The notes beneath the pieces are model-generated. The model worked only from the letters and a program-made list of their open reading frames with translations, was not told the DNA's origin and made no database searches. From a virus, in the IMG/VR virus record IMGVR_UViG_3300008114_000178, positions 1 to 32,719 of that record: a DNA stretch of 32,719 nt; one strand, 5' to 3'. The position numbers were made by a program, and so were the translations under genes. Below, piece by piece: positions 7,575 to 11,215 of the stretch (its first letter is position 1; each line of letters begins with the position of its first letter).

Positions 7575-8806
7575 CCTTACGCGACTATCAAGTTAGAATT
7601 AGTGATGAGGCGGTTGAAATACTAAAAGAGCATGGATTGGTTTACTTAGCAATGGAGCCAAGAACCGGAAAGACTCTTACATCTATAGTTACTGCCTACA
7701 AAGCAGGAGCTAAGAATGTTTTATTTGTGACCAAGAAAAAAGCCATTGATGATATTGTATTACAAGCAAAAGACCTTGGTTATCAAATTTTACTAAATGT
7801 GGTAAACTACGAGCAATTGCACAAGGTTAAAGATGAGTATGATTTGGTCATTTGCGATGAAGCGCATAGCATCGGAGCGTTTCCAATGAAAAGTAATAGG
7901 TGCGAGGAGCTTAAAAGGATTTGTGAGGATAAAAAAATTATATACTTATCTGGTACTCCATCACCAGAATCGTATAGTCAATTGTACCACCAGTTCTTTA
8001 TCTCATCTTTCTCTCCCTTCAAAAAGTGGCCTACCTTCTACAAATGGGCGCATGAGTTTGTGGCGATCAAGAAAGTGATGATAAATGGACAATCGTTCAA
8101 TGATTATAAGAACGCCGACCATCAAAAGGTTAGAGAGCATTGCGCACACCTATTTATCTCGTTCACCCAAGAACAAGCTGGGTTTACATCTTTTGTAGAT
8201 GAGGAGATACATTATGTGAAAATGATGGACTCAACGTATAGACTCGCAAATAGGCTTAAAAATGACAAAGTGGTCACTAATGCCGATGGTGATAAGGTGA
8301 TATGCGAGACAGCCGTTAAGCTCATGCAAAAGCTTCACCAAATTTATAGTGGTACCATTATCATTGATGAGCCGGAGCGAGAGAGTCGTATTATTGATAA
8401 TAGTAAGGTAGATTATATAAAAGAACGATTTAAATACCTTAAAAAATACGCTATCTTTTATAAGTTCAAGCAAGAGGGCTTATTACTAAAGACATTGTTT
8501 GATGAACCAGTTTTTGACGATGCAATGGAATTTGAAAGGGCAAGTAGGGGTATTTTCATTTCGCAAATTGTAAGTGGTAGGGAGGGTATCAACTTACAAT
8601 CTGCAGAGGCTCTTATAATGTATAATATAGACTTTTCAGCTACCTCCTATTGGCAGACAAGGGCTAGGATACAAACAAGGGATAAAGAGTTGGAATGTAA
8701 GGTACATTGGCTATTTTCGGTAAATGGCATTGAGGATAAAATACACAAAGCGGTGAGTGATAAGAAGGATTATACCATTAGGTACTTTAAAAATGATTTT
8801 TTGTGA
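7571..8806 (+). CDS. SNF2/SF2-type DNA helicase
   Basis: 411 residues. ATP-binding motifs: MEPRTGKT (Walker A, about 28-35), VICDEAH (DEAH box, 93-99) and YLSGTP (motif III, 125-130). In the second domain FISQIVSGREGINLQSAEALIMYNI and YWQTRARIQTRDK correspond to motifs V and VI of phage SNF2-like helicases. LRDYQ at the start is the usual Q-like motif. It is shorter than cellular SWI/SNF proteins but normal for phage versions. Probable role: ATP-driven DNA translocation in replication or recombination, with the nuclease upstream. Confidence 0.88.
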   Translation: MTLRDYQVRISDEAVEILKEHGLVYLAMEPRTGKTLTSIVTAYKAGAKNVLFVTKKKAIDDIVLQAKDLGYQILLNVVNYEQLHKVKDEYDLVICDEAHSIGAFPMKSNRCEELKRICEDKKIIYLSGTPSPESYSQLYHQFFISSFSPFKKWPTFYKWAHEFVAIKKVMINGQSFNDYKNADHQKVREHCAHLFISFTQEQAGFTSFVDEEIHYVKMMDSTYRLANRLKNDKVVTNADGDKVICETAVKLMQKLHQIYSGTIIIDEPERESRIIDNSKVDYIKERFKYLKKYAIFYKFKQEGLLLKTLFDEPVFDDAMEFERASRGIFISQIVSGREGINLQSAEALIMYNIDFSATSYWQTRARIQTRDKELECKVHWLFSVNGIEDKIHKAVSDKKDYTIRYFKNDFL

Positions 8807-9618
8807 TAAAAATTAACAGTTTATCCGGTGGTAAGACAAGCTCTTACATGGCTATTCACTATCCCGCCGATTATTACATATTTGCATTGGTTACAATACA
8901 AGACATATCTTGTAAGCCTAAAGATGACTCTATTATTAAATATGTATCAAATAAGATAGGTAAAGAGTTTGTCGCAACAGCCGAGGATGATAAAACACTA
9001 ATAGTCTTGCGAGATTTAGAACAAATGATGGGTAAAGAAATTATTTGGGTAACTGGTCACTCATTTGAGAAAGTAAATAAAAAAATGACAGGAGGCAAAG
9101 GATTGCCCAACCAAATGTGGAGATTTTGCACAACAGAAATGAAAATGAGACCCATTTTTGATTGGTGGTATAAGAATATTAATGAGAAAGTTATTATGAA
9201 CATTGGCATTAGATATGATGAGATGGAAAGGGCAGAAAGGATAAAAAACACATTTAAAGGCATAGTTGGTAGTCGTGGTACACGCAATAAATGGGAGGAA
9301 ATAGAGTGGAGAGAGGCCGCTTTTCCTATGGTAAATGATAAAATTATACATCCAAAAGTTGTTAATTGGGCTAATTCAACTAATTTAACCTTCCCAACCG
9401 ACTCTAATTGTGTAGGATGTTTTTGGAAAAGTATTAACCAACTGCGTAAAAATTGGGAGGATAACCCACAAAAAATGCAATGGTTTGCCGATCAAGAGAA
9501 TGATAAAAAGAGGTGGAAAAAGGAGATGAGTTATAAGCAAATATTAAATGTTGGCTTACAAATGGACTTTGATTTTGGTGAGGGTGCCGGATGTCAAGCT
9601 GGTTTTTGTACCGATTAA
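8803..9618 (+). CDS. PAPS-reductase/adenine nucleotide alpha-hydrolase-like protein
   Basis: 271 residues. It begins at GTG 8803, overlapping the helicase stop (GTGA). The PP-loop SGGKTSS (residues 8-14) is the adenylate-binding signature of the PAPS reductase / N-type ATP pyrophosphatase superfamily. Cys109 (WRFCTTEMK), Cys203 and Cys206 (NCVGC) and Cys264/Cys269 near the end (GCQAGFC) could hold an iron-sulfur cluster or act in sulfur transfer, as in the DndC/TtcA-like branches. Phage members are common but their reaction is mostly unknown; DndB, DndD or DndE partners are not seen here, so phosphorothioation is only a speculation. Confidence 0.8.
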   Translation: MIKINSLSGGKTSSYMAIHYPADYYIFALVTIQDISCKPKDDSIIKYVSNKIGKEFVATAEDDKTLIVLRDLEQMMGKEIIWVTGHSFEKVNKKMTGGKGLPNQMWRFCTTEMKMRPIFDWWYKNINEKVIMNIGIRYDEMERAERIKNTFKGIVGSRGTRNKWEEIEWREAAFPMVNDKIIHPKVVNWANSTNLTFPTDSNCVGCFWKSINQLRKNWEDNPQKMQWFADQENDKKRWKKEMSYKQILNVGLQMDFDFGEGAGCQAGFCTD

Positions 9619-9627
9619 TTATTGATT

Positions 9628-9768
9628 ATGATAAAGACAATTTTCGCTTACTTTTGGTTTTTTTGCATAAGTTTACCAATCGCTGGGCTTTTGCTTATAC
9701 TTTTAGAAATTGTTTATTCACTTAAAACTATCACTAAATGGACTTCAAAACGACAAAGTTCGACGTAG
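9628..9768 (+). CDS. Small membrane protein, 46 residues
   Basis: Starts 9 bases after the PAPS-reductase-like gene (ATG 9628, leader ATTATTGATT). It has a long hydrophobic stretch (FAYFWFFCISLPIAGLLLILLEIVY), enough for one membrane pass, followed by a basic tail (KTITKWTSKRQ). It overlaps the next gene by 31 bases. Membrane-like composition and fill of an otherwise empty 119-base gap support it. No family recognised. Confidence 0.5.
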   Translation: MIKTIFAYFWFFCISLPIAGLLLILLEIVYSLKTITKWTSKRQSST

Positions 9769-10154
9769 ACGCATCGGGACTTAATTACCATCTCGGCCTC
9801 CGTTCCTCAATAGATATAGACTATTGGGTTGACAAAACAAATCAATTCTTAGAGTGGAAAGCCACTGTTATTAGCAACACACAAGGCATTACCAATCTTT
9901 ATGGCTATGCAAAAGGAGCACACTTTTGGATAAGATTTAGAATTGACATAGATGACCTCTCAACCAAAGAGGAGGAGTCACTTATCAAAGAGTGGGATGG
10001 TGAGGTGCATAGAGGCTATCTTGAGGGTACGTTCTGCGTTAGTACGTTCACCGAGAAGGATTGGCAAATAGAATTTAGCGTTGAGCCAAAGCCATCAATG
10101 ATACCTCAAGAGCTGCGAGTCAATTTCATGGATAAACTAATGGAGGTGGTATGA
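9738..10154 (+). CDS. Hypothetical protein, 138 residues
   Basis: Mixed alpha/beta soluble protein without membrane segment or signal peptide (IDIDYWVDKTNQFLEWKATV, FWIRFRIDIDDLSTKEEES, GYLEGTFCVSTFTEKDWQIEF). It ends with a 4-base overlap (ATGA) with the methyltransferase gene. No family or motif recognised. The operon position links it to DNA modification or nucleotide functions, which is not evidence of a role. Confidence 0.7.
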   Translation: MDFKTTKFDVDASGLNYHLGLRSSIDIDYWVDKTNQFLEWKATVISNTQGITNLYGYAKGAHFWIRFRIDIDDLSTKEEESLIKEWDGEVHRGYLEGTFCVSTFTEKDWQIEFSVEPKPSMIPQELRVNFMDKLMEVV

Positions 10155-11215
10155 AACATGGCTCATTATTTAGTGGCATTGGAGGCTTTGACCTGGCTGC
10201 CGAATGGATGGGATGGGAGAATGTTTTCCATTGTGAGTGGAACAAATTTGGACAGCAAGTATTAAAATATTATTGGCCTAATTCAATTAGTTACGATGAC
10301 ATCACCAAAACAGATTTTACTATTCACAGAGGAAAAATTGACATCATCACCGGAGGATTCCCATGTCAACCATACTCAAGTGCAGGAAAGCGACTTGGCA
10401 AAGAGGATGAGAGACACCTCTGGCCGCAAATGCTTAGAACGATTAGAGAGGTTCAGCCACGTTGGGTCGTGGGCGAAAACGTTCTCGGCCTTGTTAATTG
10501 GTCAGGAGGGTTGGTTTTCCACGAGGTGCAAGCTGACTTGGAAGCTGAAGGGTACGAAGTACAACCGTTTGTACTTCCAGCTGTTTCCGTCAACGCACCC
10601 CACCGAAGAGACCGAGTTTGGTTTGTTGCCCACTCCAAAAACAATGGATGGAATGGCGGAGAATTTGAACAGCGGGAAGGAATTGAAACTAATCAATGGA
10701 AGTTTTGTGAACATAAGACAAAAGGACGGGATGAGGTTTGGCCCGAGTCTCAACGACATAGCCAAAATGGGAATGTTGCCGACACCGAATGCACAAGATT
10801 GGAACACAGGAACGAAACCAGAAACTTATCAAACGAGAAAAGAAAGACATCAACAGAAAGGAGTCAATTTGCAAATGAGTTTGAGACAGATGGCGATGGG
10901 GAGCGGTTGTCTGCCAACTCCGATGGCATCGGATTGCGGAGAGAAAGTAACTGGTCTGGAAAATCAAGATTCATTAGTAAAAATGACAAGAGAAATGACT
11001 GGCAAACCTTCCCAACTGTCTCCCCAATTTGTTCTGGAGATGATGGGATTTCCGACCGATTGGACTCTATTACCTTTCCTAAATGGAGAAATGAATCAAT
11101 CAAAGCCGGAGGAAATGCAATAGTTCCTCAAGTAGTTTACCAAATATTTAAAACAATCGAACAATATGAGAGAATCACTAATACAAGGCGCGATCCGCGC
11201 TCACCTCATCAATGA
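10151..11215 (+). CDS. DNA (cytosine-5) methyltransferase
   Basis: 354 residues. Motif I FSGIGGFD (7-14) binds S-adenosylmethionine; motif IV GGFPCQPYS has catalytic Cys72; motif VI GEN-V at 108-111; motif VIII RRDRVWFV (152-159); motif X GNAIVPQVV (321-329). It transfers a methyl group to cytosine C5, probably protecting phage DNA from host restriction or marking it. No cognate restriction gene is seen. The region between motifs VIII and X (about 160-318), where the target recognition domain should be, is hydrophilic and low in hydrophobic residues, with AHS (160-162), ADT (210-212) and ANS (255-257) repeats each followed by a G-L/W context. That whole stretch is also open in another frame (10296-11123), which may explain the odd composition. 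Confidence 0.93.
   Translation: MKHGSLFSGIGGFDLAAEWMGWENVFHCEWNKFGQQVLKYYWPNSISYDDITKTDFTIHRGKIDIITGGFPCQPYSSAGKRLGKEDERHLWPQMLRTIREVQPRWVVGENVLGLVNWSGGLVFHEVQADLEAEGYEVQPFVLPAVSVNAPHRRDRVWFVAHSKNNGWNGGEFEQREGIETNQWKFCEHKTKGRDEVWPESQRHSQNGNVADTECTRLEHRNETRNLSNEKRKTSTERSQFANEFETDGDGERLSANSDGIGLRRESNWSGKSRFISKNDKRNDWQTFPTVSPICSGDDGISDRLDSITFPKWRNESIKAGGNAIVPQVVYQIFKTIEQYERITNTRRDPRSPHQ
10296..11123 (+). CDS. Overlapping reading frame nested in the methyltransferase gene (LPTP-repeat protein)
   Basis: A 275-codon frame wholly inside the methyltransferase gene. Unlike a random shadow it has protein-like order: a Trp/Leu-rich part (FSHVGSWAKTFSALLIGQEG, CKLTWKLKGTKYNRLYFQLFP), three spaced repeats GLLPTPKTMDG, GMLPTPNAQDW and GCLPTPMASDC (LPTP at 10626, 10776, 10911), and an end LSPQFVLEMMGFPTDWT. 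From memory, proteins with these same features recur in sequence databases beside or overlapping phage cytosine methyltransferases, suggesting both frames are conserved. It may be a separate protein translated from an internal start (ATG 10296), or a pattern forced by the methyltransferase sequence. No function is known to me. Confidence 0.45.
   Translation: MTSPKQILLFTEEKLTSSPEDSHVNHTQVQESDLAKRMRDTSGRKCLERLERFSHVGSWAKTFSALLIGQEGWFSTRCKLTWKLKGTKYNRLYFQLFPSTHPTEETEFGLLPTPKTMDGMAENLNSGKELKLINGSFVNIRQKDGMRFGPSLNDIAKMGMLPTPNAQDWNTGTKPETYQTRKERHQQKGVNLQMSLRQMAMGSGCLPTPMASDCGEKVTGLENQDSLVKMTREMTGKPSQLSPQFVLEMMGFPTDWTLLPFLNGEMNQSKPEEMQ

Follow-up and report, generated by a model that had tools for sequence, protein, structure and literature searches.

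A reading frame nested at +1 in a phage cytosine methyltransferase gene as the probable target-recognition and motif IX subunit of the enzyme

The window analysed here, the complete 32,719-nucleotide viral record IMGVR_UViG_3300008114_000178, contains a C5 cytosine methyltransferase gene (A) that entirely encloses a second open reading frame (B) in its +1 frame. B is a genuine protein-coding gene, conserved and nested at +1, rather than a chance opening. We consider it highly likely that B carries an array of target-recognition cassettes followed by methyltransferase motif IX, which would join the product of A in a two-subunit methyltransferase. The two frames and their parts are located in Table 1.

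Table 1. Positions of the two overlapping frames and their parts in the window
Feature	Position	Strand	Basis
A, C5 cytosine methyltransferase ORF, 354 aa, proposed catalytic subunit (motifs I–VIII and X)	10151..11215	+	PF00145, phrog_363, invariant motif residues
A motif I (LFSGIGGFDLA), outside the overlap with B	10166..10198	+	Read from sequence; invariant in alignment of 67 homologues
A motif IV (GGFPCQPYS, catalytic Cys), overlapped by B	10352..10378	+	P71, C72, Q73 invariant (67 homologues)
A motif VI (ENV), overlapped by B	10475..10483	+	E109, N110, V111 invariant (67 homologues)
A motif VIII (RRDR), overlapped by B	10604..10615	+	R153, R155 invariant (67 homologues)
A passenger linker opposite the cassettes, open, hydrophilic, unconserved	10634..11020	+	Substitution ratios; composition
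A motif X (AGGNAIVPQV), begins shortly before the B stop	11105..11134	+	A319, G321, N322, A323, V325, P326 invariant
B, nested +1 ORF, 275 aa, ATG start, proposed target-recognition/motif IX subunit	10296..11123	+	phrog_1008; +1 conservation; purifying selection
B N-terminal conserved domain, residues 30–112, same bases as A motifs IV–VIII, truly dual-coding	10383..10631	+	C46, G69, W73, W82, R91 etc. invariant; both frames constrained
B cassette 1 (LPTPKTMD...KMGM), family F6, 50 codons	10626..10775	+	Cassette clustering
B cassette 2 (LPTPNAQD...GSGC), family F2, 45 codons	10776..10910	+	Cassette clustering
B cassette 3 (LPTPMASD...KPSQ), family F1, 35 codons	10911..11015	+	Cassette clustering
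B motif-IX-like end LSPQFVLEMMGFPTDWT	11016..11066	+	Invariant residues; aligns to LSPSFVELLMGFPLGWT of L387/L389

A matches the PF00145 (E 1.4e-46) and phrog_363 (E 2e-73) families, and its profile can be aligned to residues 15–176 of M.HhaI. Motifs I, IV (PCQ), VI (ENV), VIII (RxR) and X of C5 cytosine DNA methyltransferases are all present. A conserved target-recognition region of its own between motifs VIII and IX is absent from A, as the consensus of 67 homologues contains no conserved residues there. Since A shows no amino-acid-level constraint in this stretch, we regard it as a catalytic subunit and not as a complete single-chain enzyme. As the original prediction had remarked, the methyltransferase frame is hydrophilic between motifs VIII and X: the residues AILMFVWCY make up 22% of this region in 105 homologues, compared to 44% in motifs I–VIII and 41% in the C-terminal part. 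The genes around the A/B pair are phage replication and structural genes. A PAPS-reductase-like gene (phrog_424) is located upstream of A at 8803–9618, and a PAPS reductase is likewise found near the methyltransferase of Bacteroides phage BS-TP4. Directly upstream of A is a 138-residue ORF without a family match (9738–10154), whose 4-base overlap with the start of A (ATGA) suggests translational coupling.

The opening of the +1 frame is rarely reproduced by the codons of A. Synonymous shuffling of these codons in 105 distinct homologues retained a +1 opening of the length of B in 104 of 10,500 trials. In the +1 frame, a median of 81% of the A gene is open, compared to 11–30% for the other four alternative frames. 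All 156 IMG/VR loci retrieved with A or B as the query have B at +1. In a set of 382 diverse loci drawn from wider sources (Bacteroidota prophages, Paenibacillus and Lactobacillus phages, and others), a tally of classes places the N-terminal profile of B at +1 to A in at least 350, and the same nesting is present in prophage-like loci of many Bacteroidota. One frame is interrupted in three of the 156 loci (B early in L008 and L106, A early in L120), which are possibly decayed copies or sequencing errors. The openness could in theory be an artefact due solely to the codon bias and conservation of A, and the window by itself is not overwhelming in this respect, as 20 of 5,000 synonymous shuffles of its A gene reach the observed +1 opening. 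However, the conservation across many loci, the B-specific substitutions, the existence of cassette families and the Shine-Dalgarno-like starts all argue against an artefact, and the cassette changes refute it, being concentrated at third codon positions of the B frame rather than the A frame; we consider this explanation hardly credible. Conservation, substitution patterns and the single-frame relatives thus support the proposal that the 275-codon frame is a real overlapping protein.

The third position of a B codon is the first position of an A codon, so that the two frames predict distinct substitution patterns. Across 92 independent pairs of homologous cassettes (mean divergence 10%), changes per codon amount to 0.218 at position 3 of B, compared to 0.050 and 0.030 at positions 1 and 2. 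Under a simple neutral model (transitions weighted 4:1) with single-change classification, which gives indicative ratios and not maximum-likelihood estimates, nonsynonymous changes, synonymous changes and stops in B occur at 0.39, 2.55 and 0.21 times the neutral expectation; the corresponding values for A are 1.28, 0.28 and 0.28. Coding constraint in the cassettes thus lies on B; A is carried along there as an open passenger whose main requirement is to reach motif X, which also explains its hydrophilic composition. Opposite motifs IV–VIII, changes that are synonymous in A show ratios, indicative in the same way, of 7.1 when they are also synonymous in B, 2.3 when they are nonsynonymous in B and 0.44 when they create a stop in B; the A-only N-terminal control gives 2.8, 2.8 and 4.8 for these classes. 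The third-position rate of A also falls, from 0.217 per codon in the A-only control to 0.150 opposite motifs IV–VIII. We conclude that both frames are constrained where A encodes motifs IV–VIII. The suggestion that both frames may be under selection holds over these motifs; in the cassettes, it holds for B alone and fails for A at the amino-acid level.

Near its N-terminus, B has an in-frame ATG in 106 of 106 aligned loci, compared to 64% expected from synonymous shuffling, and these ATGs sit at a handful of recurring positions. In Paenibacillus-type loci, an in-frame stop lies a few codons upstream of the start of B, whose ATG or TTG is preceded by GGGAGGTG- or GGAGG-type sites. Direct reading of the window identified no clear Shine-Dalgarno site ahead of 10296; the absence of a clear site is common in Bacteroidota. 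Alternatively, a programmed +1 frameshift near the end of motif VIII could produce an A-B fusion, a methyltransferase with the B cassettes, as an alternative to A. Such a fused order is workable in principle, as judged by the single-chain relatives described below, and conservation is high in the codons that close motif VIII. However, the B segment opposite motifs IV–VIII, which is under selection, would be left untranslated in this fusion, indicating that B is translated from there and arguing against a shift after motif VIII. The clustered start codons of B, together with the upstream stop and Shine-Dalgarno-like sites of the Paenibacillus-type loci, also count against it; the fusion would lack motif X, which the window type keeps in the A frame, and no slippery site was recognised on inspection by eye. 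We regard the frameshift as improbable. Two proteins and a frameshift fusion had both been envisaged at the outset, and two proteins fit better, given the start region of B itself, the Shine-Dalgarno-like sites of Paenibacillus-type loci and the selected N-terminal part of B.

B matches phrog_1008, a phage family labelled ‘DNA methyltransferase’, with an E of 6.7e-25. Pfam and NCBIfam gave no match to B, and a sequence search of the PDB with the B profile returned nothing up to an E of 10. A tblastn search with B found matches in 74 phage records, with relatives in phages of Paenibacillus, Escherichia, Salmonella, Klebsiella, Edwardsiella, Mycobacterium, Pseudomonas and others; the E. coli phages Bas73 and Bas74, which carry the pair, are among the hits. 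In Paenibacillus phages, both frames are annotated as DNA cytosine methyltransferase, and a nested ORF of phage K1ind1 is annotated as ‘Mte8-like’; the original prediction was right in kind to mention LPTP-rich, MMGFP-ending proteins near phage methyltransferases.

The probable role of B emerges from two related phage loci, L387 (IMGVR_UViG_3300025141_000274) and L389 (IMGVR_UViG_3300030329_004210), in each of which motifs I–VIII, PTP cassettes, LSPSFVELLMGFPLGWTDL and motif X share one uninterrupted frame. That frame includes the B-type ending LSPxFVExxMGFPxxW (motif IX), and the +1 frame of both loci is full of stops. The end of B, LSPQFVLEMMGFPTDWT, with invariant residues L241, P243, F245, V246, M249, M250, G251, F252, P253, W256 and T257, aligns to LSPSFVELLMGFPLGWT of the two single-chain enzymes. 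With the database size set to 1,000, the B profile detects both enzymes (E 6.8e-8 for L389 and 3.1e-7 for L387) over a span of one cassette and the LSPSFVELLMGFPLGWT-type motif. phrog_1008 matches residues 133–387 of L387 (E 3.9e-15), on which the Pfam methyltransferase model can be aligned to residue 323, through the motif-IX-type sequence. LSPQFVLEMMGFPTDW presumably resembles motif IX of M.HhaI, and the homology tests are independent of that likeness. A split layout is seen in L364, L368 and L369, where A ends right behind motif VIII and the +1 ORF holds the cassettes, motif IX and motif X. The single-frame and split layouts lead us to read B as the variable region plus motif IX. Sequence comparison shows B to share homology with its single-chain relatives over their recognition region and motif IX, and B is most likely a target-recognition array and motif IX half that, as a separate subunit, would complete A with its motifs I–VIII and X. 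The suggestion that the nested frame supplies target-recognition parts is supported by this homology and by the selection on B.

In L367 and L386, the cassettes and motif IX are apparently fused in the A frame behind a relic +1 first cassette, with a damaged motif X; this is possibly a recent frame switch or a sequencing error. We did not adopt L367 as a natural single-frame fusion, for which it is weak evidence, with motif X damaged and a +1 relic remaining.

B could also be a real protein with a role unrelated to the recognition step, such as an anti-restriction or regulatory protein, nested by happenstance. It possesses an extra N-terminal domain that is missing from the single-chain relatives, it lacks a match to a solved structure, and its AlphaFold model is poor: for B alone (96 homologues), the mean pLDDT is 57, and only cassette 1 (about residues 121–160) is locally confident. 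The model of L387 has a pLDDT of about 97 for the catalytic domain and <50 for the C-terminal half, from an input alignment in which the B rows were misplaced; both models were set aside. However, the cassettes are homologous to the recognition region of single-chain methyltransferases and the C-terminal motif to their motif IX, and some loci have motif X in the B ORF as well, which makes an unrelated role very improbable.

Cutting B at its LPTP anchors in 97 loci yielded 314 cassettes, mostly of 30–51 codons, which group into 64 families. Each locus carries two to five cassettes, and 79 different arrays are present in the 97 loci; that of the window is F6-F2-F1. The same family can be found at differing places (F0 in positions 1 to 3), and F0-like cassettes are present in distant phages, with DTFTANLKSSQQRIGSRHSVTL in Lacticaseibacillus phage R9.1, DTFTNNLKSSQQKLGSMHSVNL in L368 and DSTNATATMKSTQVKEGSMHSVTL in the relatives of the window. 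The LPTP stretches are modular, exchangeable cassettes swapped between phages. The repeats were initially noticed in the window as three LPTP starts that coincide in register with the methyltransferase-frame triplets AHS, ADT and ANS, followed by an ordered C-terminus; these are indeed the starts of the three cassettes and the motif-IX-like end in Table 1. L387 and L389 are 86% identical, and their last cassettes before motif IX are wholly different (ASPVKVDGDK... versus QTPTTQDASN...), which is a direct view of one cassette exchange.

We propose that B is translated from its own start codon within the methyltransferase gene and would constitute the small-domain half of the enzyme, an array of recognition cassettes, each headed by the LPTP signature, followed by motif IX. 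A would be the catalytic half (motifs I–VIII) with motif X, its stretch opposite the cassettes serving as an open linker only. Together, the two proteins would form a two-subunit methyltransferase acting on phage DNA, in which B provides the small domain that reads DNA. Gain, loss or exchange of B cassettes would alter the methylated sequences, as in the multispecific Bacillus phage enzymes. Each cassette may have one target, both subunits would be needed, and the benefit may be protection against restriction. On a broader scale, we lean slightly towards a widespread phage system in which the recognition array lies in the +1 frame of the catalytic gene and cassettes that are open in both frames recombine, resulting in combinatorial multi-target specificity through a trans-acting subunit.

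Some observations speak against the two-subunit reading. AlphaFold yielded no confident fold for B or for the C-terminal half of L387, and the published placement of the M.EcoHK31I recognition domain in the large subunit differs from our reading. In some loci of the Bacteroides group, A contains in-frame TGA codons and B is intact, as might be seen if B were retained without A. L221, L224, L225, L232, L233, L235 and L236 have two to three in-frame TGA codons in A (e.g. L224:2904–2906). Several of these fall at Trp positions of relatives, and W19 is common to two clades. Between L221 and L224, the A-only N-terminal codons differ by 20 synonymous and 6 nonsynonymous changes, still a coding-like evolution despite the TGAs. 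TGA is possibly read as Trp, or it may permit TGA/ATG reinitiation (GAATGAATGG); no tRNA was found in the TGA-bearing Bacteroides-group loci.

Among known systems, M.EcoHK31I is a characterised two-polypeptide C5 methyltransferase (YGGCCR) with motifs I–VIII and X in the large polypeptide and motif IX only in the small one, and its predicted recognition domain is placed in the large subunit (PMC3404938). The window is similar in that A holds motifs I–VIII and X and B ends in a homologue of single-chain motif IX. The small-subunit frame of M.EcoHK31I, which Lee et al. reportedly described in 1995, is said to overlap that of the large subunit in another frame within its gene, much as B is nested at +1 in A, and both subunits are said to be required in vitro. 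In contrast to M.EcoHK31I, the putative recognition array of the window lies in the nested frame, with two to five exchangeable cassettes and selection on B, not A; the pair is phage-borne, and no restriction partner was identified beside it. As cassette selection acts on B, whereas the M.EcoHK31I recognition domain is predicted in the large subunit, we describe the pair as working like M.EcoHK31I and not as a member of that type, likened by layout and not by sequence. The catalytic and motif IX halves of M.AquI are also separate polypeptides, alpha and beta (PMC3404938). M.AquI resembles the layout of L364, L368 and L369, being split within the variable region with motif X in the small subunit, whereas motif X of the window is in A and B is wholly nested. 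Between motifs VIII and IX, the C5 methyltransferases of Bacillus phages SPR, phi3T, rho11 and H2 carry recognition domains in tandem, each some tens of residues long. Like these, the window type has tandem exchangeable modules ahead of motif IX (two to five cassettes, 64 families), but its array is in the +1 frame, whereas theirs are in frame with the catalytic motifs. Work on multispecific phage methyltransferases is cited in PMC8936443. The family and nesting of B recur in phrog_1008, in the ‘Mte8-like’ ORF of K1ind1 and in the ORF that Paenibacillus larvae phages have as a second ‘DNA cytosine methyltransferase’, as annotations only; in the literature searched, we found no function assigned to the nested frame.

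Nested or split C5 methyltransferases, multi-domain phage methyltransferases and individual annotated nested ORFs are known already. In the literature searched, which left out most subscription journals and REBASE, we found no description of a nested recognition frame in phages; new against that literature is the combination of recognition cassettes in a nested frame, a passenger outer frame, cassette shuffling and a spread over hundreds of phage loci. The pair is an unusually clean natural example of a long same-strand overlap, with one half constrained in both frames and the other in the nested frame only, and its cassette modules must remain open in both frames upon recombination. As single-frame, split and nested layouts exist side by side, the origin of the overlap is testable. 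If the proposed reading is true, many phage genes annotated as ordinary single methyltransferases, in which the recognition domain is hydrophilic or absent, would be halves of two-protein enzymes, whose specificity would be encoded in a frame left out of most annotations. This would have consequences for methyltransferase prediction, for cloning, where A without B would be expected to fail, and for the interpretation of methylomes.
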